The notes below the pieces were generated by a model, which was given only the letters and a program-made list of their open reading frames with translations, made no database searches and was not told where the DNA came from. A stretch of DNA of 64,000 bases, taken from the NCBI RefSeq assembly GCF_963855985.1, contig NC_087093.1:7385501-7449500 (forward strand). The letters run 5' to 3'. Numbering within the stretch: the first letter of the stretch is position 1; the number at the start of each line of letters is the position of its first letter. Of the stretch, positions 29,707 to 52,833 are shown in pieces. The position numbers and the translations under genes are program-made. This stretch comes from Ostrinia nubilalis (Eukaryota > Arthropoda > Insecta > Lepidoptera > Crambidae).

Positions 29707-29872
29707 AGCCCCGATTACGGTAACTTTTAACGTCAACAATCCAGACACGCTTCTCGATTCTGCGATACGATTGGTCGTTCAACAGCGTACAACAGCTGTT
29801 TTGACCAATCATATCGCAGAATCGAGAAGCGTGTCTGGATTGTTGACGTTAAAAGTTACCGTAATCGGGGCT
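29707..29872. repeat. foldback MITE, 166 bp, CTG target
   Basis: Almost a full palindrome, with ends AGCCCCGATTACGGTAAC. TSD CTG (29704-29706 and 29873-29875). The empty site is in copy B near 59230. A second copy is at 45517-45681. Confidence 0.9.
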
Positions 29873-30171: not shown

Positions 30172-33100
30172 ATGGTGACCTGTTCCGTCCTGGATTGTGA
30201 TATAAACCAGAGAAATAATCCCGCAAAATATTCATTTCACAGGTAAATTTATTGAAATCGACACCTCCAAACTTTAGCTTTATTTTTGTGAATGCGCTTA
30301 GAATTTTAAGCACTAAGTGTGATAATTATGTTCTTTAAACATTAATTTAAGTTGTAAGCAAAGATTTGATGCACATAATCCAGAATTTATGAATATTTTG
30401 TGTAAAGAAATAATTTTCGTTTTACACTAGGGCTGTACCACAATCGATAAATATATTTTGTGCACTGTCTATCACAGTCACCTGGGAATGTAATAATATG
30501 AGTTTCTGACTATTATAATAGGTACTAATTAGTAAAGTATCTTTCAGATTTCCGACTAACGAAGATGTAAGAAAAACATGGCTCAAATTAATTAATCGTC
30601 CAAATTGGATTCCAACTAAATATGCCACTTTATGTAGCAAACATTTTGATAGTAAATGTTTTCGAAAAATTGGAGCCAGAATCACGTTGAAAAAATGTGC
30701 AATCCCTACAGAGTTTGTTCCGGTAAGTTTAATTAAAATAATACTATTTCTGGCAATAAATATTTTCATTTTCATTTTCTTCTGATGATGTTTCGTTGGT
30801 TAGTAATGTCAATTTATTACCTTGATCTGGTTGTTTTCATTGTTTTGATAAAAAATGTTTAACTATAAGTTATAATTAAACTATGATTTCTATGAAATAG
30901 TCAAACACGGGTCTTAACGCGACGTTTATTAATGAGTTACATTATGTACTCACGGCTTGACGTTTCGGCTGCGATGCTGCAGCCGTAGTCACAAGTAGAC
31001 TGGCGGTTCGCGGCGTTGTCCGTTCGGGTGGGCATGAAGATTTTCAACTACCCTCATAATAATATAAAATCTTATATGATTTCTATAGTCAATTCTTTCT
31101 TTATTTTTCACAGGTGAAAGTAAAGCCAACACGCACAGTTATATGATTTCTATAGTCAATTCTTTCTTTATTTTTCACAGATGAAAGTAAAGCCTACACG
31201 CACAATGTCGTCGTACGTGAACAGAGATATTTTACCAGAGGGATCTACATTATCGTCTAGATCTCCGCCGCCGACACCACAGCTTCAGCCCACACCAGAG
31301 GGATCTACATTATCGTCTAGATCTCCGCCGCCGACACCACAGCTTCAGCCCACACCATCGACCTCTTTCCAAAAACTTAAATCTAAATGCGCAAAATTGC
31401 AAGAAAAAATAAAAAAGAAAACGCAACTCATTAGACACTTAAGATCACAAAATAAACGAACTAAAATTAAAGTTGTAACCTTAGCATCTTTGCTTGATGA
31501 ATTTAAAAAATGTCCTCGGCTTTGTGATAATTTAAATGACATTGCCGCAACATGCAGTAACAAAACTATTCAGGCCTTAAACGACCGAACGAATGCTGTA
31601 GCTCGAGGTGATATATCTCAGTCAACTACATATTGTGACGAATTGAAAAGATTTGCATTAACGGTTCATTTCTATAGCCCGAGATCATACAGTTACATTC
31701 GCGAAAAATTTTCTTTTTGCTTGCCACATGTAAATACTCTGAGAAACTGGTATAAACGCGTAGATTGTGCTCCTGGATTTACGGAAGAATCTTTTAATAC
31801 AATTAAAGAAGTAGCCAAAACAAAAGATCTTCTTGTAAGTTTAACTTTCAATGAAATGAGCATCAAAGAATATACTGAGTTTGTAGGTAAGAATCACTAT
31901 GGCCATGTTAATTTCGGGAACGATTCACATGGGGATGAAATTCCAGTGGCAAATCAAATTCTTGTATTTATTGTCGTAGCAATCAACCACTTTTGGAAAC
32001 TACCCGTAGGTTTCTTTCCAGGGCGGGCTTTTACAGCTACTCAAAAAGAAAACTTGCTGAAAATATGTCTTACTCTTTTAATTGAAACTGGATGTACCGT
32101 TGCTTCAATAACTTTTGATGGCATATCCTCTAATTTAAACATGTGCAAATTATTGGGATGTAAATTTACAACTGAATCCATCATTCCTTATTTTTATCTA
32201 AAAAACAAAAAATATTACGTTTTATTTGATCCGTGTCACCTTTTAAAACTTATAAGAGGTATATTTCATGATAAGAAGACATTTATAGATTGTAACGGAA
32301 AGAGAGTAGAATTTAAATTTGTAACAGAACTATACGACCTTCAAGTAAAAGAAGGCTTGAGACTTGCCAATAAGTTAACTTTCAGACATATAAATTTCAT
32401 GAAACAAAAAATGAAAGTTAAATTAGCCGTACAATTGTTATCGGAGTCTGTTGCCACAGCCATAGAATATTGCCAAAACTTTTTGAATTTACGCCAATTT
32501 CAGAACTCAGAAGCCACTGTTAGATTCATACGCATGGTTAACGAATTATTTGATATTTTTAATTCACGGAATTTCCTTTCATACGGTTATAAAAAACCGT
32601 TATTTGAAAGGAACAAGGAAATTATATTTCAAAAACTTGATGAAGTTTACGACTATTTCTGTAACTTAAAATACGAAGATGGTACTTTAATAATAAATTC
32701 AGCAAGACATCTCGGATTTTCTGGATTCTTAGTTAATATTAAAGCTTTGAAAGGGCTGTATGTAGATTATATCGAGAAAGGTCCTTTGAAATTTTTGCCT
32801 TTATACAAACTTTCACAGGACCACGTAGAAACTTATTTTAGTGCAATTAGATCTATGGGTGGTTTTAACAACAATCCTACAGTAAGAAATTTTGTATCAG
32901 CTTATAAGAGATTGCTTTGTCACACTGAGGTCAAGCTTAGTGAATGTGGAAATTGCTTAGAGCTGGAAAAAGTAACTTTACTTAATGGTGCAACTTCTAC
33001 GACAGACAGAATTAATTGCTCTATAATATTTAACAAAATGAAACAAGAATTTGAAATACAAGATCCTTTAGAAAAAGACCAGGAATATATATCAGAAATA

Positions 33101-33634
33101 TCAGAATTAGATAGATTACCAGACTCTTCACAAGATTTTACACAATTTGTTAAGTCAGTCGTACAATACATTGCAGGATTTGTCATTAAAAAAATTCGAA
33201 GGAACATACACTGTGAAGTTTGCTTGGAATCCCTCACACAGGCTCGGGCCGACTCATTAATAAGTAGGAAAGACTTTGATAAAACTGGTGTTGGTTTTTT
33301 AATATATCCTTCTGAAGATGTGATAAATGTTTGCTTAAAGTGTGAAAAATATTTTCGAGAAAAATTAAAAACAAATTTTAATTTTGATGAAAACAAATTT
33401 GATAAGACGGTTCTAGATATCATTCGTCATATTGATTTGCAAAATCATTTTGATTCTTTGGTTGTCCATTCATTCGATCAAGATCCACTTAACAGTCACA
33501 GATATCTTATTATCAAATGTATCATTGAAACATATTTGCCTGTAAGATTGAGGTACGAAACAAAATTAAAAAATGTATCAAAGTTGACTTTGAGAAATTA
33601 CTTAAACAAAATAATACTTTTCCGAGGGCAATGA
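30172..33634 (+). CDS. P-element / THAP9-type transposase, open but with Asn at the expected first catalytic Asp
   Basis: Cut-and-paste DNA transposase acting in the nucleus on the element's TIRs. Exons 30172-30242, 30548-30722 and 31181-33634 join in frame to 899 aa, close to THAP9 (about 900). THAP zinc domain residues 1-82: CSVLDC, then CSKHF and AIPTEF. A basic coiled-coil-like region follows at about 145-170. RNase H-fold motifs: FNEMSIKE, where the family has DEM, so the first catalytic Asp appears changed to Asn; TFDGISSN (second Asp); FDPCHLLKLIRG; SQDHVETYFSAIRS (Asp and catalytic Glu kept). The C-terminal YIAGFVIKK...CEVCLESL is family-typical. The exon 3 acceptor is duplicated: using the upstream copy (31114) meets a stop, using the downstream one (31181) is in frame. 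A 60-bp in-frame duplication lies at 31235-31354. Probably inactive in catalysis, yet otherwise uninterrupted. Confidence 0.88.
30900..31035. repeat. dispersed repeat in P-element intron 2
   Basis: GACGTTTCGGCTGCGATGCT and CAGCCGTAGTCAC resemble a common lepidopteran dispersed repeat. Family not named. Confidence 0.5.
31072..31205 (+). repeat. 67-bp tandem duplication covering a splice acceptor
   Basis: Copies start at 31072 and 31139. Each holds the pyrimidine tract, CACAG acceptor and first codons of exon 3. Only the second gives an open reading frame. Confidence 0.9.
31235..31354 (+). repeat. 60-bp in-frame tandem duplication
   Basis: Two identical copies (31235-31294, 31295-31354), each encoding 20 residues rich in Ser/Pro (TLSSRSPPPTPQLQPTP), between the THAP domain and coiled coil. 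Confidence 0.95.
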
Positions 33635-38713: not shown

Positions 38714-38843
38714 CCCCCCTAGACAAAACGCACTTTTTGATCGAATCGAAAATCGAATCCGTCAAAACTCCATACAAAAAAGGGGGCTTTTCGACCACTT
38801 TGCGACTGGTTTGCGATTATAATTTGCACTTTGTCTAGACCCA
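38714..38843 (-). repeat. S MITE, 130 bp, CTG target
   Basis: Reverse-complement copy of 52705-52833. Ends CCCCCCTAGACAAAACGC and GCACTTTGTCTAGACCCA. TSD CTG at 38711-38713 and 38844-38846. Confidence 0.85.
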
Positions 38844-43111: not shown

Positions 43112-43329
43112 ATATATACCCGAATTTTCAATAGCATACTTTTAAGATAGCAGAATTTTATTGGGCATAATTTCGATTACGGGACTATTCCCATCTCTCG
43201 TTCCCACCACTGCAACTCCTGTGTAGCCAGGATCTACAGCTTGACCGCCACAAAAACCCAACCAATGAAGGTCAAGTTTGTCCCGGGGGAAAGTTAAACT
43301 GTCATTGGACCCGCAACGAAATTAATCAG

Positions 43330-44798
43330 CGGGTCTAGTCAAAACGCACTTTAAAATCGCAAACCCATCGCAAACCAGTCGCAAACAAATAAACAAATCG
43401 CAAAAGAGGTCGATAACAAAAAAGGCTTAGTCAAACGGCAAAAAATCGAATCGCAAAGCCCTACCTATCGATAATCGAAAGACTGGATTGAAATTTCCCA
43501 TACAAAGGCTTAGCCAACATGCATTTAAGACTCAATCAAAATCGAATCGAATCGCAACACCCGCCATTTTCATTGCGATTACTAAAACCCCGGTGATAAG
43601 CTTCCATTTGATCGAAAACCAATAGGGTGAGTTGCACCACCTAACTTTGACCGTAACTATGACGTTAACCGGTGTTTTTTGTATGGAGTTTGACAGATTT
43701 TAGACGTTTGTCAAAGTTAAACTAAGATGGTGCAACCCATCCTAAGGCTGTTTTGACAAATCCGTATCGCGATGTCGTTTTGACAGTTAGTTTGACGGCG
43801 AAGCATAGACGTAAACAGAGAGCAGTGGGTCTAGTCAAAATGCCATCGCAAACCAATATGAAGTTTTCACTAATGTCAGTCGCCGCGTCACCAGTAATTC
43901 GATTCGATCGGAAAATGGCAGCCAAAATGCACATTGAACCACCAACGACGCGGCGACATAAAAGTTCATTCAAAATCGAATAAATGTTAAAAAATGTCTA
44001 TGACTTTGCGATTGTTTTTACTTTTTTTAGCTTTTTTTTTTTAAATTAGTTTCTTCCTTCTTTCTGCTCTCTGTTTACGTCTATGCTTCGCTGTCAAATT
44101 AGCTGTCAAAACGACATCGCGATACGGATTTGTCAAAACAGCCTTAGGGTGGGTTGCACCATCTTAGTTTAACTTTGACAAACGTCTAAAATCTGTCAAA
44201 CTCTATACAAAAAACACCGGTTAACGTCATAGTTACGGTCAAAGTTAGGTGGTGCAACTCACCCTATTGGTTTTCGATATAATCGAAGCTTATCACCGGG
44301 GTTTAAGTAATCGCAATGAAAATGGCGGGTGTTGCGATTCGATTCGATTTTGATTGAGTCTTAAATGCATGTTGGCTAAGCCTTTGTATGGGAAATTTCA
44401 AACCAGTCTTTCGATTATCGATAGGTAGGGCTTTGCGATTCGATTTTTTGCCGTTTGACTAAGCCTTTTTTGTTATCGACCTCTTTTGCGATTTGTTTGT
44501 TTGTTTGCGACTGGTTTGCGATGGGTTTGCGATTTTAAAGTGCGTTTTGACTAGACCCGCCGAAAGAAGGAAGAAACAAATTAAAAAAAAAAGCTAAAAA
44601 AAGTAAAAACAATCGCAAAGTCATAGACATTTTTTAACTTTTATTCGATTTTGAATGAACTTTTATGTCGCCGCGTCGTTGGTGGTTCAATGTGCATTTT
44701 GGCTGCCATTTTCCGATCGAATCGAATTACTGGTGACGCGGCGACTGACATTAGTGAAAACTTCATATTGGTTTGCGATGGCATTTTGACTAGACCCA
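43330..44798 (-). mobile_element. W MITE copy 1, split by W copy 2
   Basis: Two parts, 43330-43825 and 44563-44798, together ~732 bp. TIR core GGGTCTAGTCAAAA at both ends. Outer TSD CAG at 43327-43329 and 44799-44801. Interrupted exactly at its internal CAG (43823-43825). Confidence 0.88.
43826..44559 (+). mobile_element. W MITE copy 2 (734 bp), nested in copy 1
   Basis: Complete copy in opposite orientation to copy 1. Left TSD CAG; right CCG (one base changed). It includes an inner GGGTGAGTTGCACCACC...GGTGCAACCCACCC inverted-repeat unit flanked by TA, present in every W copy. Confidence 0.88.
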
Positions 44799-44801
44799 CA
44801 G

Positions 44802-44994
44802 AAGAACATAGGAGGAGTTCGAAATTAAGGTTCGACTTCCCTCCATTGCATAGCGGATGACAGGTGACAAACAAAGGTTTAAAACCTTTAAGAAAAGATT
44901 ATGCACCACGGACAATAAATTAAATTAAGGGGGCCTATCTTATGAGCAATTAGCAACTATTTATACCTGCCAATAATATTTTTCACAAAATCGC
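44802..44994. other. nothing recognised
   Basis: Short spacer before the LINE remnant. Confidence 0.4.
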
Positions 44995-46053
44995 TTAAAA
45001 GCACGGAAATTTTTCCTTGTCGCGACAAGATCGGTGTAATAAATTGCGGAAACAGATGTAATGTTGTATTGAATTAAGCATTATATCACGTTCATGTTTC
45101 CGAAGATCACACTCCCACAAGATATGATGGGCAGACTGCTCATGACTGACATCATCAGTGGAACACTCGAAAAAAGGAGACGAAACTAGTTTGAATTCGT
45201 GAAGTTTATGTTTAAAGTTGCCATGTCCCGTGAGGAACTGCGACGAGCAATGGTCGATTTCTAACCATCGCCTAGTTAGACGTTCGCGTACATTCGGGAA
45301 GAATTTATATAAGTGACATCCTTTGACTGACGTATCCCATCTTTTTTGCCATTCATTAAGTAATTCTTCTTCAACGACTTCTCGGGAATCAAATAATCGA
45401 CTTATTTTAGAACGATCGCGGCTATTTAAGAAATCGGAGGTTATATTTTCCCTTGATGCGAAGTACATAGTCGCACGCTTTTGTACCTCTAAGTCGACCG
45501 GCAGTACACCAGCCAGAGCCCCGATTACGGTAACTTTTAACGTCTACAATCCAGACGCGTTTCTGATTCTGCGATACGATTGGTCAAAACAGCTGACGTA
45601 CGCTGTTGAACGACCAATCGTATCGCAGAATCGAGAAGCGTGTCTGGATTGTTGACGTTAAAAATTACCGTAATCGGGGCTCAGGACTGGCAGAGCCTCC
45701 GTGCTCACAGTTCTGTAAGCTTTGCAAAGAAAAATCAATGCAAGGCGTTGACTTTGGAGTAGTTTCCGTCGAGCGGTTCCTATAGTAGCTCTGTCAGCCC
45801 AAACTGGTGCACCATAGCAAATGGAGCTTAAATAAGTGGCCGAATATATTACTCGGAGGATTTTAAACGTTAGACCCCACGTCGAGGCGTCTTTCCGTTC
45901 TATACATGGCCAGAACGCACCCATAGGAAACTGCTCGTGTATATTTTGTAGTGCCCGTTTGTAAATCTGTGACTCCAAACTATACACGAATTTTGCGTAC
46001 TGATCGTGTATAGTTTGGAACAGCTGCAGCTTAGTAAAAGAAGTCATATCCAA
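44995..46053 (-). pseudogene. LINE ORF2 C-terminal remnant split by a MITE
   Basis: The minus strand codes from 46053 to 45685 and from 45513 to 44995 in the same frame once the 165-bp MITE and one CAG are disregarded. Motifs ILRVIYSATY, CKAYRTVSTEALPV, GVLPVDLEVQKRA and HHILWECDLRKHERD match the C-terminal part of R1-like non-LTR elements. RT and endonuclease are missing, so it is 5'-truncated. No other stop interrupts it, which suggests it is not very old. Confidence 0.7.
45517..45681. repeat. foldback MITE, 165 bp, CAG target
   Basis: Second copy of the AGCCCCGATTACGG family (first at 29707). TSD CAG at 45514-45516 and 45682-45684, confirmed by the coding frame it splits. Confidence 0.9.
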
Positions 46054-46388
46054 ACTATACTCGATTAGTTTCTACTACACCACTTACACTTGACTAGTGT
46101 GTTTAGTTGATATTGATTTAGTAAAATATGGAATTATATTTAAAATTACATATTTTATTCGATATTATTACATAAAATATTATTATTTTACTGAATCTAT
46201 AATAAATCTAGATTTTTAACACTATTGTAAGTGGTTTTTGAAATTAAATTGATTAGGTAGATTTCAAATTAAATAACAATTATTAGTGTAATCATAAATT
46301 CATTTAAAATGAGAGAGAGTGAGAAAAGAAAGTTCAACGTGCATTATTAATACATTATGCGAGACTTTAAATGCTAGGTTTGTATTAT

Positions 46389-46560
46389 CGGCCGTTTGGT
46401 GTAGTGGTTCGAAACGGACTACTATTCCGGAGGGAGCGGGTTCGATTCCCGCACAGTAAAAACATTTGTGTGCATGAACATATTTGTTTGTATTGGACTG
46501 GGTGTTTTCTATGTATAGTAAGTATGTATTTACAAAAAAAAAGTATTTAAGTAGGTATGT
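46389..46560 (+). repeat. tRNA-derived SINE
   Basis: Head GGCCGTTTGGTGTAGTGG, B box GGTTCGATTCC, short body ending after an A-run. Same family as 33700-33794. Confidence 0.75.
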
Positions 46561-47089
46561 ATGTTTAATACTTAGTATTATGTACAAGCTTTGCTTAGTT
46601 TGGGACTAGAAGCGCAGTGTAAAATGTCAAAGGATATTTATTTATTATTTAATAATATTATTTATTATTTAAATTCAATGAAAAAGGTGAGTAAACAATC
46701 ATTATTTTCTAAATCCTTCTTATTTTTTTAAATGTTTATGTTAAACCTTAATAAAGAATACACTGTCTAAGTGGTACTAATGATATTTTATCGCTATTTG
46801 TTTATTAAGGGGTTTATGAGAGGTGGCCACTAATGGAGCCAGAATGAATGAATTTTCCCATCTTTGGCCACATGAATGGCCAAAAGTGGTGCACGAAGAA
46901 CCCCACTTTTGGCCATTTAGTTTTTATCGTGATTTTTCAATTTAATTACTTAGCTATTTTGATATAAGTAATCGATTCATTTTCAGAGTTACGATTATAA
47001 TGCCTCCATCGAAACCAAATTAATACTAAAAAAATCGGTGTTGTGAAAAGAAAATTGTTCCAGTATTAGTACTGTTAGTATTAGTTCCC
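46561..47089. other. AT-rich, with TTGGCCA motifs
   Basis: No gene. TGGCCAAAA/TTTTGGCCA motifs cluster at about 46830-46920 and again at 48215-48275 and 50043. Confidence 0.4.
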
Positions 47090-48195
47090 GTTCCCGTGGG
47101 AATTTCGGGAATTCCCGTTCCCGTGGGAATTTCGGGAATTCCTTGTTTGTAACTAAGCTTTAAGTTTACTAAGGTACCTACATACCAAATTTCAAGCGTC
47201 TAACTTAAGCAGTTTAGATTTATCATACAAAAGGATTTACCCGCGAATTCCCGTTTCCGTGGGAATTTCGGGAATTCCCGTTCCCGTGGAATTTTCGGGA
47301 ATTCCCGATGCGGTGGGAATTTCGGGAATTCCCGTTCCCGTGGGAATTTCGGGAATTCCTTGTAACTAAGCTTTAAGTTTACTAAGGTACCTACATACCA
47401 AATTTCAAGCGTCTAACTAAAGCAGTTTAGATTTTTCATACAAAAGGATTTTCCCGCTAATTCCGGTTCCCGTGGGAATTTCGGGAATTCCCGTACCCGT
47501 GGGAAATTCGGGAATTCCTTGTTGTAACTAAGCTTTAAGTTTACTAAGGTACCTACATACCAAATTTCAAGCGTCTAACTTAAGCAGTTTAGATTTTTCA
47601 TACAAAAGGATTTTCCCGCGAATTCCCGTTCCCGTGGGAATTTCGGGAATTCCCGTACCCGTGGGAATTTCGGGAATTCCTTGTTGTAACTAAGCTTTAA
47701 GTTTACTAAGGTACCTACCTACCTACATACCAAATTTCAAGCGTCTAACTTAAGCAGTTTAGATTTTTCATACAAAAGGATTTTCCCGCGAATTCCCGTT
47801 CCCGTGGGAATTTCGGGAATTCCCGTTCCCGTGGGAATTTCGAGAATTCCTTGTTGTAACTAAGCTTTAAGTTTACTAAGGTACCTACCTACCTACATAC
47901 CAAATTTCAAGCGTCTAACTTAAGCAGTTTAGATTTTTCATACAAAAGGATTTTCCCGCTAATTCCCGTTCCCGTGGGAATTTCGGGAATTCCTTGTTGT
48001 AACTAAGCTTTAAGTTTACTAAGGTACCTACATGCCAAATTTCAAGCGTCTAACTTAAGCAGTTTAGATTTTTCATACAAAAGGATTTTCCCGCTAATTC
48101 CTGTTCCCGTGGGAATCCCTAAGTATACTATAACCTGCCCAGGAGTATGAAAAATAATTGTACCAAGTTTCGTTAAAATCCGTCGAGTAGTTTTT
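47090..48195 (+). repeat. tandem-expanded copy of the dispersed repeat at 1192
   Basis: Six copies of the anchor TAACTAAGCTTTAAGTTTAC at about 47150, 47362, 47524, 47685, 47854 and 47998 (spacings 144-212 bp), separated by variable numbers of TCCCGTTCCCGTGGGAATTT units. It ends with the same unique 3' part as 1580-1670 but without the CAGA tail. Confidence 0.8.
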
Positions 48196-48422
48196 GTTTT
48201 TTTTTGATGAATTTTGATGGCCAAAACTGGCACATGACTGTGGCCAGAAATGGGGTAAAGCTGGCCAAAAATGGCACAAATTCCCATTTCTTTTTCTTTT
48301 CTACAGGATTATTTTTCCATTGAATCATTATGAAAAAAAATGTATCCTTAGGCTAGATCTAAATATATTTAATCACTCTTTACAAGAAATAAGTCCGTGA
48401 TAACAAAAACTGTAAAATGATA

Positions 48423-50013
48423 TCGCACACCTAGATCTAAACTGAGACAACTCAAAAAAGGGCATTTTTCAGGAGGCGAAAAAAACGTATTACTACATAT
48501 TTTGTTAGGGAAGTTATGAAACTCAGTTTTATTTTGGATTATTGATAGGCTGTGAAATGATCCTGTGTATTAACTGGGTCAAAAAATCTATCCTTTTTAC
48601 CTTTAATCGCAGTTTTTTTAGTTGTTACATTTTAGGGGAATGACTTTGTATAAATAATAAAGTACATTTAGACTTGAATCAGTTTTTTTTGGACATTTTG
48701 AGATTTGAGTCCTCCTTTTCCACTCTTAAAATTTTTATATCGTGCCATTTAACTTGATTCCGATTTTCGTCTACAACCAAATTAGTTGCCCACATTTTTT
48801 GCAAGATTTTAGTGTCATCAAACTTTTCAAATGTCATCTCTTCCACGTTCTTTGGTCCTCTGTATTTCAAAATTTCAAGATGTGGCTGAGTCCTCTTCCT
48901 GCACTATTAAAGTGTTTTCATTGAATGTTTCGATATCCTTAATCATCAATTTAGGAATTGTTTGAGAAAACAGTTCTTTTTAACACGATTTGGATCAGCA
49001 TAAGAGATATAAATGAAGATTTCATGACATGGTGAACATGATAGGTGTTTGAGTTTCTTCAGCCACTTTTTCTTAGCATCAGCTGATTGATATGTTTATT
49101 TATTATTTATTTACTTATTATAGACCTTTTTTCTACATTATTTTTTATTTCTACATTATAAAGAAGGTTTTATCTCTTGTGCAGACAACAGCATATCAGA
49201 CTATACACTTGTATTACAACTACATTAGTTACTACAGTGTTTAACTTGAAGGGCCGTCGTCTGTACATCGCTATTTTAACTATCTTTACACTGTTCTCTC
49301 AAAATATTTAAAAGAAAACGACCTAGCATATTTTTTTCGGAAAATAAAGAAAATATCCACTGTAATTTTTACTTATCCAACAATAGTAAGTTAACTCAAA
49401 ACACTCTTCTCAAACACAACAGTTGAACAGTTTGAATAAAACTAACTTTATTTAGGAACAGGGATTATCATACTGTACCTGATTTTAGGTGAAACATGCA
49501 AAACTACGCGTTCTGTATAGAAAAACATTGAATTGAAATTTGTTCCAACAAAACTACGCCAACTAGAAATTCACAAGTTGATTCATCAAAACAAACTCAA
49601 CTCAAAATAGTAACAAAATATAAGTTACTTTATCAAACAAAACTGGAACAAGTCAAAATGATCTGGTTGACTATTGCAGAACAATTCATCAATACTGTTA
49701 CTACTCAAATTAACTCATTACATATTTTCTGCTTAACTGTAACAAATCTAAATATCCGCGTTTTCGTTTATTTTAATACGTGCACTCTCTGATACTAGCG
49801 AAGGTCAACTGACAAAACGCTTGTTTAGGTGGAAGGGGTTGACAAGCGTTGATTCAACAAAAGTAAGTTATCGCCATCTAGCGGCAAATGGATCAAGGCT
49901 TTATTAAACCTGTTATGTTGGAAAGATGCGTATGATAACCGAGTATTTGAATACAAGCATAAGTCAAAATTGGCAATTTTTGAGTTGTCTCAGTTTAGAT
50001 CTAGGTGTGCGAT
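48423..50013. mobile_element. 1.59-kb element, TIR TCGCACACCTAGATCTAAAC
   Basis: ~37-bp inverted ends, flanked by TA. The interior is AT-rich. A 63-codon minus frame (48870-48679) has no motif I recognise. Confidence 0.7.
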
Positions 50014-50590
50014 ATAGCCTCAAAGTCTAAAAAATTCTTAAAATGGCCAAAACCGGGTCACCTGCCCTAGTTGATTTCCAATAAAAACTACCCATAAAAC
50101 GCAACTTAACCTAAAAATTTCATTTTCAGTTTTTTCAGAAACTAAGTTTCCGATCTCCCCCGTTCACAGGGGGAGTTTCCCTACCCCCCTCTCTCCCTCC
50201 ACCTCATCCCTACAACCCTTTAATAATGCGATAGAGGAATAAAAATTTAACCTTTAATAGTATGCCAAAAGACGATTCTGACTAAGAACTTTCTGCGATG
50301 ATGGTTCTGCTTTTTAATTATTCGGGATTTTTAAAGTAAGTCATCATCATTTTTAAAATAAGTAAATCATCTTTAAGCCTAAAGATGATTCTGCCTTACA
50401 AAATTATTAGTTTTGAAGGTATGCCAAATGAGTGTATGTATTATGCCTAATGATTTTCTGAATAAAGAAGATTATGCCATCCGTTGTTATGCATAGTAAA
50501 ATTATGATTAAAAAAGTTCTGCGAAAAAAGGTAAAACCAAAAAAATTGCACTCTTGTGAGCGTAGTAGTAAGGTGCGATTTCGAATGCAC
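50014..50590. other. no gene; degenerate GATTCTGCC repeats
   Basis: From about 50262 to 50530 short motifs like GATTCTGCC, ATTATGCC and TTTCTGCG recur irregularly. Confidence 0.45.
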
Positions 50591-50593
50591 CAG

Positions 50594-51921
50594 TGGGTCT
50601 AGTCAAAACGCACTTTAAAATCGCAAACCCATCGCAAACCAGTCGCAAACAAATAAACAAATCGCAAAAGAGGTCGATAACAAAAAAGGCTTAGTCAAAC
50701 GGCAAAAAATCGAATCGCAAAGCCCTACCTATCGATAATCGAAAGACTGGATTGAAATTTCCCATACAAAGGCTTAGCCAACATGCATTTAAGACTCAAT
50801 CAAAATCGAATCGAATCGCAACACCCGCCATTTTCATTGCGATTACTAAAACCCCGGTGATAAGCTTCGATTCGGTCGAAAACCAATAGGGTGAGTTGCA
50901 CCACCTAACTTTGAACGTAACTATGACGTTAACCGGTGTTTTTTGTATGGAGTTTGACAGATTTTAGACGTTTGTCAAAGTTAAACTAAGATGGTGCAAC
51001 CCACCCTAAGGCTGTTTTGACAAATCCGTATCGCGATGTCGTTTTGACAGCTAGTTTGACAGCGAAGCATAGACGTAAACAGAGAGCAGCGGGTCTAGTC
51101 AAAACGCACTTTAAAATCGCAAACCCATCGCAAACCAGTCGCAAACAAATAAACAAATCGCAAAAGAGGTCGATAACAAAAAAGTCTTAGTCAAACGGCA
51201 AAAAATCGAATCGCAAAGCCCTACCTATCGATAATCGAAAGACTGGTTTGAAATTTCCCATACAAAGGCTTAGCCAACATGCATTTAAGACTCAATCAAA
51301 ATCGAATCGAATCGCAACACCCGCCATTTTCATTGCGATTACTAAAACCCCGGTGATAAGCTTGGATTCGATCGAAAACCAATAGGGTGAGTTGCACCAC
51401 CTAACTTTAAACGTAACTATGACGTTAACCGGTGTTTTTTGTATGGAGTTTGACAGATTTTAGACGTTTGTCAAAGTTAAACTAAGATGGTGCAACCCAC
51501 CCTAAGGCTGTTTTGACAAATCCGTATCGCGATGTCGTTTTGACAGCTAGTTTGACAGCGAAGCATAGACGTAAACAGAGAGCAGAAAGAAGGAAGAAAC
51601 TAATTTAAAAAAAAAAGCTAGAAAAAGTAAAAACAATCGCAAAGTCATAGACATTTTTTAACTTTTATTCGATTTTGAATGAACTTTTATATCGCCGCGT
51701 CGTTGGTGGTTCAATGTGCATTTTGGCTGCCATTTTCCGATCGAATCGAATCACTGGTGACGCGGCGACTGACATTAGTGAAAACTTCACATTGGTTTGC
51801 GATGGCATTTTGACTAGACCCACAGAAAGAAGGAAGAAACTAATTTAAAAAAAAAAGCTAGAAAAAGTAAAAACAATCGCAAAGTCATAGACATTTTTTA
51901 ATGGCATTTTGACTAGACCCA
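50594..51921 (-). mobile_element. W MITE copy 3, split by copy 4 and internally deleted
   Basis: Parts 50594-51089 and 51826-51921. TSD CAG at 50591-50593 and 51922-51924. Copy 4 sits at the same internal CAG as in copy 1. The second part lacks ~140 bp (junction near 51900). Confidence 0.85.
51090..51822 (-). mobile_element. W MITE copy 4 (733 bp), nested in copy 3
   Basis: Complete, same orientation as its host copy. TSD CAG at 51087-51089 and 51823-51825. Confidence 0.88.
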
Positions 51922-51924
51922 CAG

Positions 51925-52658
51925 TGGGTCTAGTCAAAATGCCATCGCAAACCGATATGAAGTTTTCACTAATGTCAGTCGCCGCGTCACCAGTAATTCG
52001 ATTCGATCGGAAAATGGCAGCCAAAATGCACATTGAACCACCAACGACGCGGCGATATAAAAGTTCATTCAAAATCGAAAAAAAGTTAAAAAATGTCTAT
52101 GACTTTGCGATTGTTTTTACTTTTTTTAGCTTTTTTTTTTTTAATTTGTTTCTTCCTTCTTTCTGCTCTCTGTTTACGTCTATGCTTCGCCGTCAAACTA
52201 ACTGTCAAAACGACATCGCGATACGGATTTGTCAAAACAGCCTTAGGGTGGGTTGCACCATCTTAGTTTAACGTTGACAAACGTCTTAAATCTGTCAAAC
52301 TCCATACAAAAAACACCGGTTAACGTCATAGTTACGGTCAAAGTTAGGTGGTGCAACTCACCCTATTGGTTTTTGATCGAATCGAAGCTTATCACCGGGG
52401 TTTTAGTAATCGCAATGAAAATGGCGGGTGTTGCGATTCGATTCGATTTTGATTGAGTCTTAAATGCATGTTGGCTAAGCCTTTGTATGGGAAATTTCAA
52501 TCCAGTCTTTCGATTATCGATAGGTAGGGCTTTGCGATTCGATTTTTTGCCGTTTGACTAAGCCTTTTTTGTTATCGACCTCTTTTGCGATTTGTTTATT
52601 TGTTTGCGACTGGTTTGCGATGGGTTTGCGATTTTAAAGTGCGTTTTGACTAGACCCG
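51925..52658 (+). mobile_element. W MITE copy 5 (734 bp)
   Basis: Complete. TSD CAG at 51922-51924, shared with the end of copy 3, and at 52659-52661. Confidence 0.9.
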
Positions 52659-52704
52659 CAGGTTCGTTGGAAATTTTGCATTATTATTATTATAGCCTGA
52701 CCAG

Positions 52705-52833
52705 TGGGTCTAGACAAAGTGCAAATTATAATCGCAAACCAGTCGCAAAGTGGTCGAAAAGCCCCTTTTTTGTATGGAGTTTTGACGGATTCGATTTTCG
52801 ATTCGATCAAAAAGTGCGTTTTGTCTAAGGGGG
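52705..52833 (+). repeat. S MITE, 129 bp, CAG target
   Basis: Ends TGGGTCTAGACAAAGTGC and GCGTTTTGTCTAAGGGGG. TSD CAG (52702-52704, 52834-52836) confirmed by the intact Z copy at 13466. Its end resembles that of W. Confidence 0.88.

Follow-up and report, generated by a model that had tools for sequence, protein, structure and literature searches.

A CWG-duplicating miniature element of Ostrinia nubilalis inserts repeatedly at one internal CAG of its own copies

We analyzed a 64,000-nucleotide stretch of the genome of the lepidopteran Ostrinia nubilalis (contig NC_087093.1, positions 7,385,501 to 7,449,500; hereafter the window) and found that a transposable element in it, which we call W, has repeatedly inserted at a single base of its own older copies. 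W is a non-coding element of ~733 bp with ends YGGGTCTAGTCAAAAYGC and a 3-bp target duplication that is mostly CWG (CAG or CTG). The recurrent target, which we call the self-site, is a W-internal CAG at 494-496, with the insertion point between AGAGCAG and AAAGAAGG. Insertion positions in W are named by the last base of the triplet, so that 496 stands for the triplet 494-496. W is probably a CWG-specific PIF/Harbinger (NuwaI)-like miniature inverted-repeat transposable element (MITE) that contains a strong target for its own insertion.

The window contains five W copies in two clusters. Intact copies have a left arm of 496 bp and a right arm of 236-238 bp, and both inner window copies lie at the self-site. 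The features, with coordinates checked base by base in the window, are as follows.

43327..43329: left-hand CAG of the target duplication of W copy 1
43330..43825, plus strand: 496-bp left arm of W copy 1, whose last bases are the self-site CAG (43823-43825)
43826..44559, minus strand: W copy 2, 734 bp, inverted within copy 1 at the self-site
44560..44562: CCG in place of the expected CAG, the second copy of the target used by W copy 2
44563..44798, plus strand: 236-bp right arm of W copy 1, followed by its right target copy CAG at 44799-44801
50591..50593: left-hand CAG of the target duplication of W copy 3
50594..51089, plus strand: 496-bp left arm of W copy 3, whose last bases are the self-site CAG (51087-51089)
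51090..51822, plus strand: W copy 4, 733 bp, direct within copy 3 at the self-site, with second target copy CAG at 51823-51825
51826..51921, plus strand: right arm of W copy 3, reduced to 96 bp by an internal deletion of 141 bp
51922..51924: CAG common to W copies 3 and 5
51925..52658, minus strand: W copy 5, 734 bp, adjoining copy 3, with right target copy CAG at 52659-52661
52705..52833, plus strand: short W-related element with YGGGTCTAGACAAAG-like ends, flanked by CAG on each side and located in the host1 repeat site (described below)
38714..38843, minus strand: second short W-related element with CTG on both sides (plus strand), in the host2 repeat site

The first-pass annotation of this DNA had described copy 2 as inverted within copy 1 and copy 4 as direct within copy 3, both at the same internal AGAGCAG point, with copy 5 adjoining copy 3 through one common CAG (51922-51924). 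Our base-by-base check agrees. Two details needed correction. All five copies had been put at about 733 bp, but copy 3 measures 592 bp, with 141 bp gone from its right arm relative to copy 4. On the far side of copy 2, the target triplet reads CCG and not CAG. Flanking sequence common to the two sides of a window copy extends over just 3 bp. Taken by itself, the coincidence in the window is weak because the W copies tested have 10-11 CAG/CTG sites each; two nested insertions would share one W site by chance about once in 11 cases. A matrix built from 4-6 window sites gave the self-site a middling rank (4th-5th of 11). The genome-wide data make the coincidence strong.

We counted exact matches in the source assembly (495,445,069 bases in 52 contigs); mutated junctions are missed, and the counts are therefore lower bounds. 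The assembly contains 551 exact W ends, which corresponds to ~275 copies. The self-site is empty at 230 exact places and occupied at 16 exact left junctions, including the two in the window, for an occupancy of ~6.5% of exact copies (16/246). The junction counts also covered three TTTGACAG sites of W at 367, 457 and 469, the last of which is absent from some W copies, and there were no exact left junctions at any of them in the assembly. A reversed-pattern control returned 0 for each of the four pattern counts. If CWG sites were chosen at random, at the CWG density of the window, ~0.006 insertions would be expected at self-sites. The first-pass annotation had proposed that W seems to carry a preferred target for itself and had named the lack of a genome-wide excess at this site as a refutation; the exact-match counts support the proposal. 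The preference is not for itself alone, as W also uses fixed points in three or more other repeats and seven W-in-W insertions were found away from the self-site.

Individual loci (numbered with the prefix L) were examined in two samples. The similarity sample, retrieved with the W left arm as query, comprised 37 stretches, two of them overlapping, among the 50 matches listed; 40 of 2354 first-look candidates were scored. A script recognized 14 W-in-W interior insertions in these loci, eight of which are at 496 (L015, L022, L026, L031, L032, L033, L042 and L043; binomial p = 8.5e-6 against 1/11). The remainder are at 489 (twice, L024 and L044), 668 (L012), 436 (L027), 271 (L022) and 263 (L044), and the targets of the last three are non-CWG triplets: CAT, AAG (CTT on the other strand) and CCG, respectively. 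A left-arm query may favor nests that keep this arm whole. We judge this bias to be about two-fold at most, because each nest also holds an intact inner arm. The position-ordered sample covered the listed W ends on contigs C1, C2 and C3 to 6.46 Mb, with every locus read and counted by hand. Its 29 W insertions include two at the self-site (L047 and L070), one at W position 255 (L080) and six with a host1 flank, two of the six having one matching flank only. From these counts, the self-site therefore takes between a few per cent and ~7% of W insertions. Further loci were picked through their occupied self-site junctions and are unfit for rate estimates.

Over all examined loci, 20 self-site events were identified, two in the window and 18 at 16 other loci. 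They comprise 13 complete direct nests, three partial nests of direct type (L043, L053 and L070, which read L-R-R or L-L-R and were counted as derived from direct nests) and four inverted nests (window cluster A, L033, L042 and the inner nest of L062). Two loci are triple nests: L060 reads L-L-L-R-R-R and is three deep at one base, and L062 is three deep with its innermost copy inverted. The seven events off the self-site are at 489 (twice) and at 668, 436, 271, 263 and 255 (once each). Direct and inverted nests occur in a ratio of 15:4 (L070 omitted), which departs from 1:1 (p = 0.019) and agrees with the 33:12 ratio of CAG to CTG among matched duplications (p = 0.80). At non-W sites, the triplet that the W left end faces is CAG in 26 cases and CTG in 13.

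Other insertions were seen within or beside W. L062 and L067 each carry an insert of ~130 bp at the same W position, 261-263, with a 3-bp overlap. A whole W is inserted at 263 in L044, and W 261-263 may mark either a subfamily or another hotspot of lesser strength. Inside W (positions 296-413 of copy 4, window 51385-51502) is a small element with inverted ends GGGTGRGTTGCACCA and TA on its flanks; similar copies stand beside some W loci, such as L011. An apparent insertion at "site 400" at L011 proved to be in a neighboring small repeat rather than in W and was removed from the insertion counts. One W copy carries a 3.8-kb insert with broken reverse-transcriptase frames.

The nests could be independent insertions or descendants of one. 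The first-pass annotation had argued that different orientations rule out a single event followed by duplication. Opposite orientation alone is no strict exclusion; the divergence of the arms, which the annotation had suggested comparing, does speak against duplication at most loci. The mean both-arm divergence is 2.27% between outer copies and 1.95% between inner copies, and an inner copy differs from its own outer copy by 2.02% on average (0.68% in L022). The 26 solitary copies differ among themselves by 1.36%, a value biased low since these copies are the best matches of one query. The nearest neighbor of an outer copy is a solitary copy in six of eight cases; inner copies have more mixed neighbors, and several are closest to other inner copies. 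In the window, no informative site unites copies 1 and 3 alone, and one unites copies 2 and 4. On these sequence comparisons most nests look like separate insertions, with a shared origin possible for a few, such as the L058/L060 pair. A W-in-W composite made once and then spread as a unit would explain why L058 and L060 are close in both left arms (0.4% apart in the outer, 0.6% in the inner) and why some inner copies are alike, such as window copy 4 and the inner copy of L033 (0.27%). We nevertheless consider such a spread very improbable: L058-L060 is the one pair of 55 among 11 nested loci that falls within 1.0% in both arms, both orientations are present, most outer copies are nearest to solitary ones, and window copy 4 and its near twin in L033 differ in orientation (direct and inverted, respectively). 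The first-pass annotation had named an assembly error in both clusters as fatal to its claim. Near-identical repeats misassemble easily, and we judged the nests from the assembled sequence. Such an error is scarcely credible given that nests occur at 18 places whose flanks are distinct (the window contributes two), that the 18 events at 16 loci outside the window show both orientations, and that substitutions distinguish inner from outer copies.

We compared the self-site with the other targets of W. Among 84 flanks of W ends outside W, 74 are CAG or CTG. Preferences beyond this triplet are weak, with C or T before CWG in 76% and A or T before that in 81%. A set of 196 W ends from the examined loci, enriched for self-site loci, was sorted by what each end abuts: 35 the self-site, 20 host1, five and two at two other repeat sites, seven another W at its edge, 15 other positions in W (a number that includes two from the discarded L011 case) and 112 the rest. 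Host1 is a repeat site, TATAGCCTGAC-CAG-GAACATAAAAACC, that is empty at 2906 exact places (AGCCTGACCAGGAACATAAAAAC). Many of the 100 host1 places listed form opposite-strand pairs ~717 bp apart, like the ends of another element. The internal CAG of host1 is a recurrent target of both W and the short W relative at window 52705-52833. Extrapolation from the position-ordered sample (6/29 of 275 copies over 2906 places) puts host1 use at ~2% per site, compared with 6.5% for the self-site. The self-site is not the sole hotspot, and by this extrapolation host1 takes more insertions overall but fewer per available site.

These data suggest a model for how the nests arise. W would be a non-autonomous cut-and-paste element whose transposase chooses CWG for most insertions and duplicates these three bases. 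Some extended CWG sites would be strongly preferred, and one of them would be W's own CAG at 494-496, which lies beside the purine run AGAGAGCAGAAAGAAGGAAGAAA and near an A-tract. New copies would then land at exactly this CAG of older copies, and the near-palindromic CWG would permit either orientation. Each inner copy would supply a fresh self-site, allowing nests to deepen, and landing in the CAG that flanks a W copy would yield abutting copies with one common CAG. The first-pass annotation had called self-targeting a way to build clusters. As a consequence of the pattern this is sound; as a function of W it would be conjecture.

We favor the view that extended sequence or DNA shape makes this CAG hot, with local hopping as a possible contributor. 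Several points weigh against it or against the wider model. A weight matrix built from the 84 non-W flanks ranked the self-site 4th, 2nd and 2nd of 10 CWG sites at three widths, and ranked W site 668, with one insertion only, first at every width; local sequence as modeled is therefore no sufficient account of self-site choice. Some insertions lack CWG altogether (CAT, AAG, CCG and others). The sequence or shape step is hypothetical, and the transposase family is one we infer; no transposase or autonomous partner was identified, and no search aimed at one was made. The main rival is tethering, in which transposase on a resident W captures incoming complexes and the most reachable CWG there is used. 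The indifferent motif rank of the self-site agrees with this, as does per-site use that seems higher in W (16/246) than in host1 (the extrapolated ~2%). We regard tethering as unlikely, and favor extended sequence or shape over it, because fixed points in non-W repeats are also recurrent targets and a CAG 7 bp upstream of the self-site received two events against 20. W copies might also gather by landing near their donor or by surviving better in transposons, with the common base a coincidence. Five W copies do lie within a 9.3-kb span in the window, other W clusters exist (C3:8527678-8532085 and C6:7061212-7061787), and a uniform local model produced at least two interior nests in 16% of runs. 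Neither process picks a single base, however, whereas eight of 14 insertions in the similarity sample share one site and the exact counts are 16 at the self-site and 0 at the three other CAG sites. As a full account, local hopping or tolerance is disfavored and appears improbable; it could contribute.

The target duplications show an unexpected bias. For 70 copies with both flanks available, 45 have a matching CWG, 11 differ at the middle base only, seven have another matching triplet and seven show another mismatch. The last group consists of two copies that differ at an outer base only and five that differ at more than one base (one of the latter, L018, is a parsing slip). Nine of the 11 middle-base cases are CAG on the left and CTG on the right, one is the reverse and one is CGG/CTG. 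They include L025, L026, L033, L038, L044, L051, L068 and L074; two further cases of the 11, L012 and L053, adjoin other parts of W and are possibly rearranged. Such a center bias (11 of 13 single-base differences, p = 2e-4) is not expected from ordinary point mutation. Exchange between distant copies gives no ready account, because L026, L033 and L051 are inside W and L038 is inside one host repeat. A carried overhang or a flipped hairpin may possibly lie behind the swaps. A bolder and doubtful reading is that the self-site is an internal docking site that actively draws W's own transposition complex and so builds nested one-base arrays, with every newly arrived copy providing the target for another; the excess of swapped middle bases would further mean that a 3-base overhang is carried from donor to target, as in piggyBac, and not that both target copies are made by filling of gaps.

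We considered the classification of W. Intact copies of 732-734 bp, inverted ends, a target duplication and 551 exact ends in the assembly agree with a MITE, and no open reading frame of at least 150 amino acids overlaps the intact copies. Classical PIF/Harbinger (Tourist-like) elements duplicate an AT-rich 3 bp, TWA, and hAT elements duplicate 8 bp. W belongs with neither, as its duplication is CWG, not TWA, and its window flanks agree over 3 bp only. Excerpts of PMC4482050 contrast TWA with CWG and describe, within the PHIS (PIF/Harbinger, ISL2EU, Spy) superfamily, a NuwaI group from animal hosts with 5'-CWG-3' target duplications and inverted ends of 12-61 bp that usually start with GGG. 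The CWG duplication of W matches this group and its 18-bp ends fall within the length range, but C or T precedes GGG, an extra base that applies if the duplication is 3 bp. Autonomous NuwaI members encode a DDE transposase and a Myb/SANT protein; the comparison with W covers ends and duplications. The hosts named in those excerpts are fish, beetle, crustacean, mollusc and anthozoan, with no lepidopteran. W had no match in prokaryote contigs, and its one match in viral contigs looks like chance. The 14-base W end had no exact match in the literature searched, only shorter or related strings.

We also compared W to published cases of target preference and self-nesting. The zebrafish Harbinger3_DR is described in PMC3016246 as having a target centered on CWG with an extended preferred palindrome, AAACACCWGGTCTTT; it differs from the W self-site, and both are CWG-centered. 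Insertion of MITEs into their own family is called common, and multimers are described, in excerpts on rice and maize (PMC3695323, PMC10664404). W resembles these elements in self-nesting, and a single-base self-hotspot is not mentioned in those excerpts. Helitrons in Fusarium nest within their own kind with repeated termini, but passages of PMC5148889 report few cases, and these rolling-circle elements use a different mechanism. Literature searches returned no title or abstract matching a one-base self-hotspot, which may still be in print.

The window contains other repeats. A second MITE family (29707-29872 and 45517-45681) combines long inverted arms and ends AGCCCCGATTACGG with duplications of either CTG or CAG, and both of its empty sites read CCWGG. 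Positions 31181-33634 hold an open 817-amino-acid P-element-like transposase frame whose best unnamed relative is 55% identical; named lepidopteran relatives are 33-59% identical over part or most of its length. Its named relatives come from Parnassius, Pieris, Arctia, Heliothis, Chilo and other moths, and also from psyllids, a spider, ants and others. A tandem array of related units spaced ~135-305 bp occupies 47088-48155.

To our knowledge, target choice by CWG-type PIF/Harbinger transposases has been little studied. W offers ~275 near-identical targets exposed to the same element, in which one CAG is ~6.5% occupied and three neighboring CAGs not at all by exact count, and on which the effects of sequence, shape and tethering can be compared directly. 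The general idea of MITE self-nesting becomes a countable single-base case, and W illustrates a route by which new insertions of an element can be taken up by the element itself.

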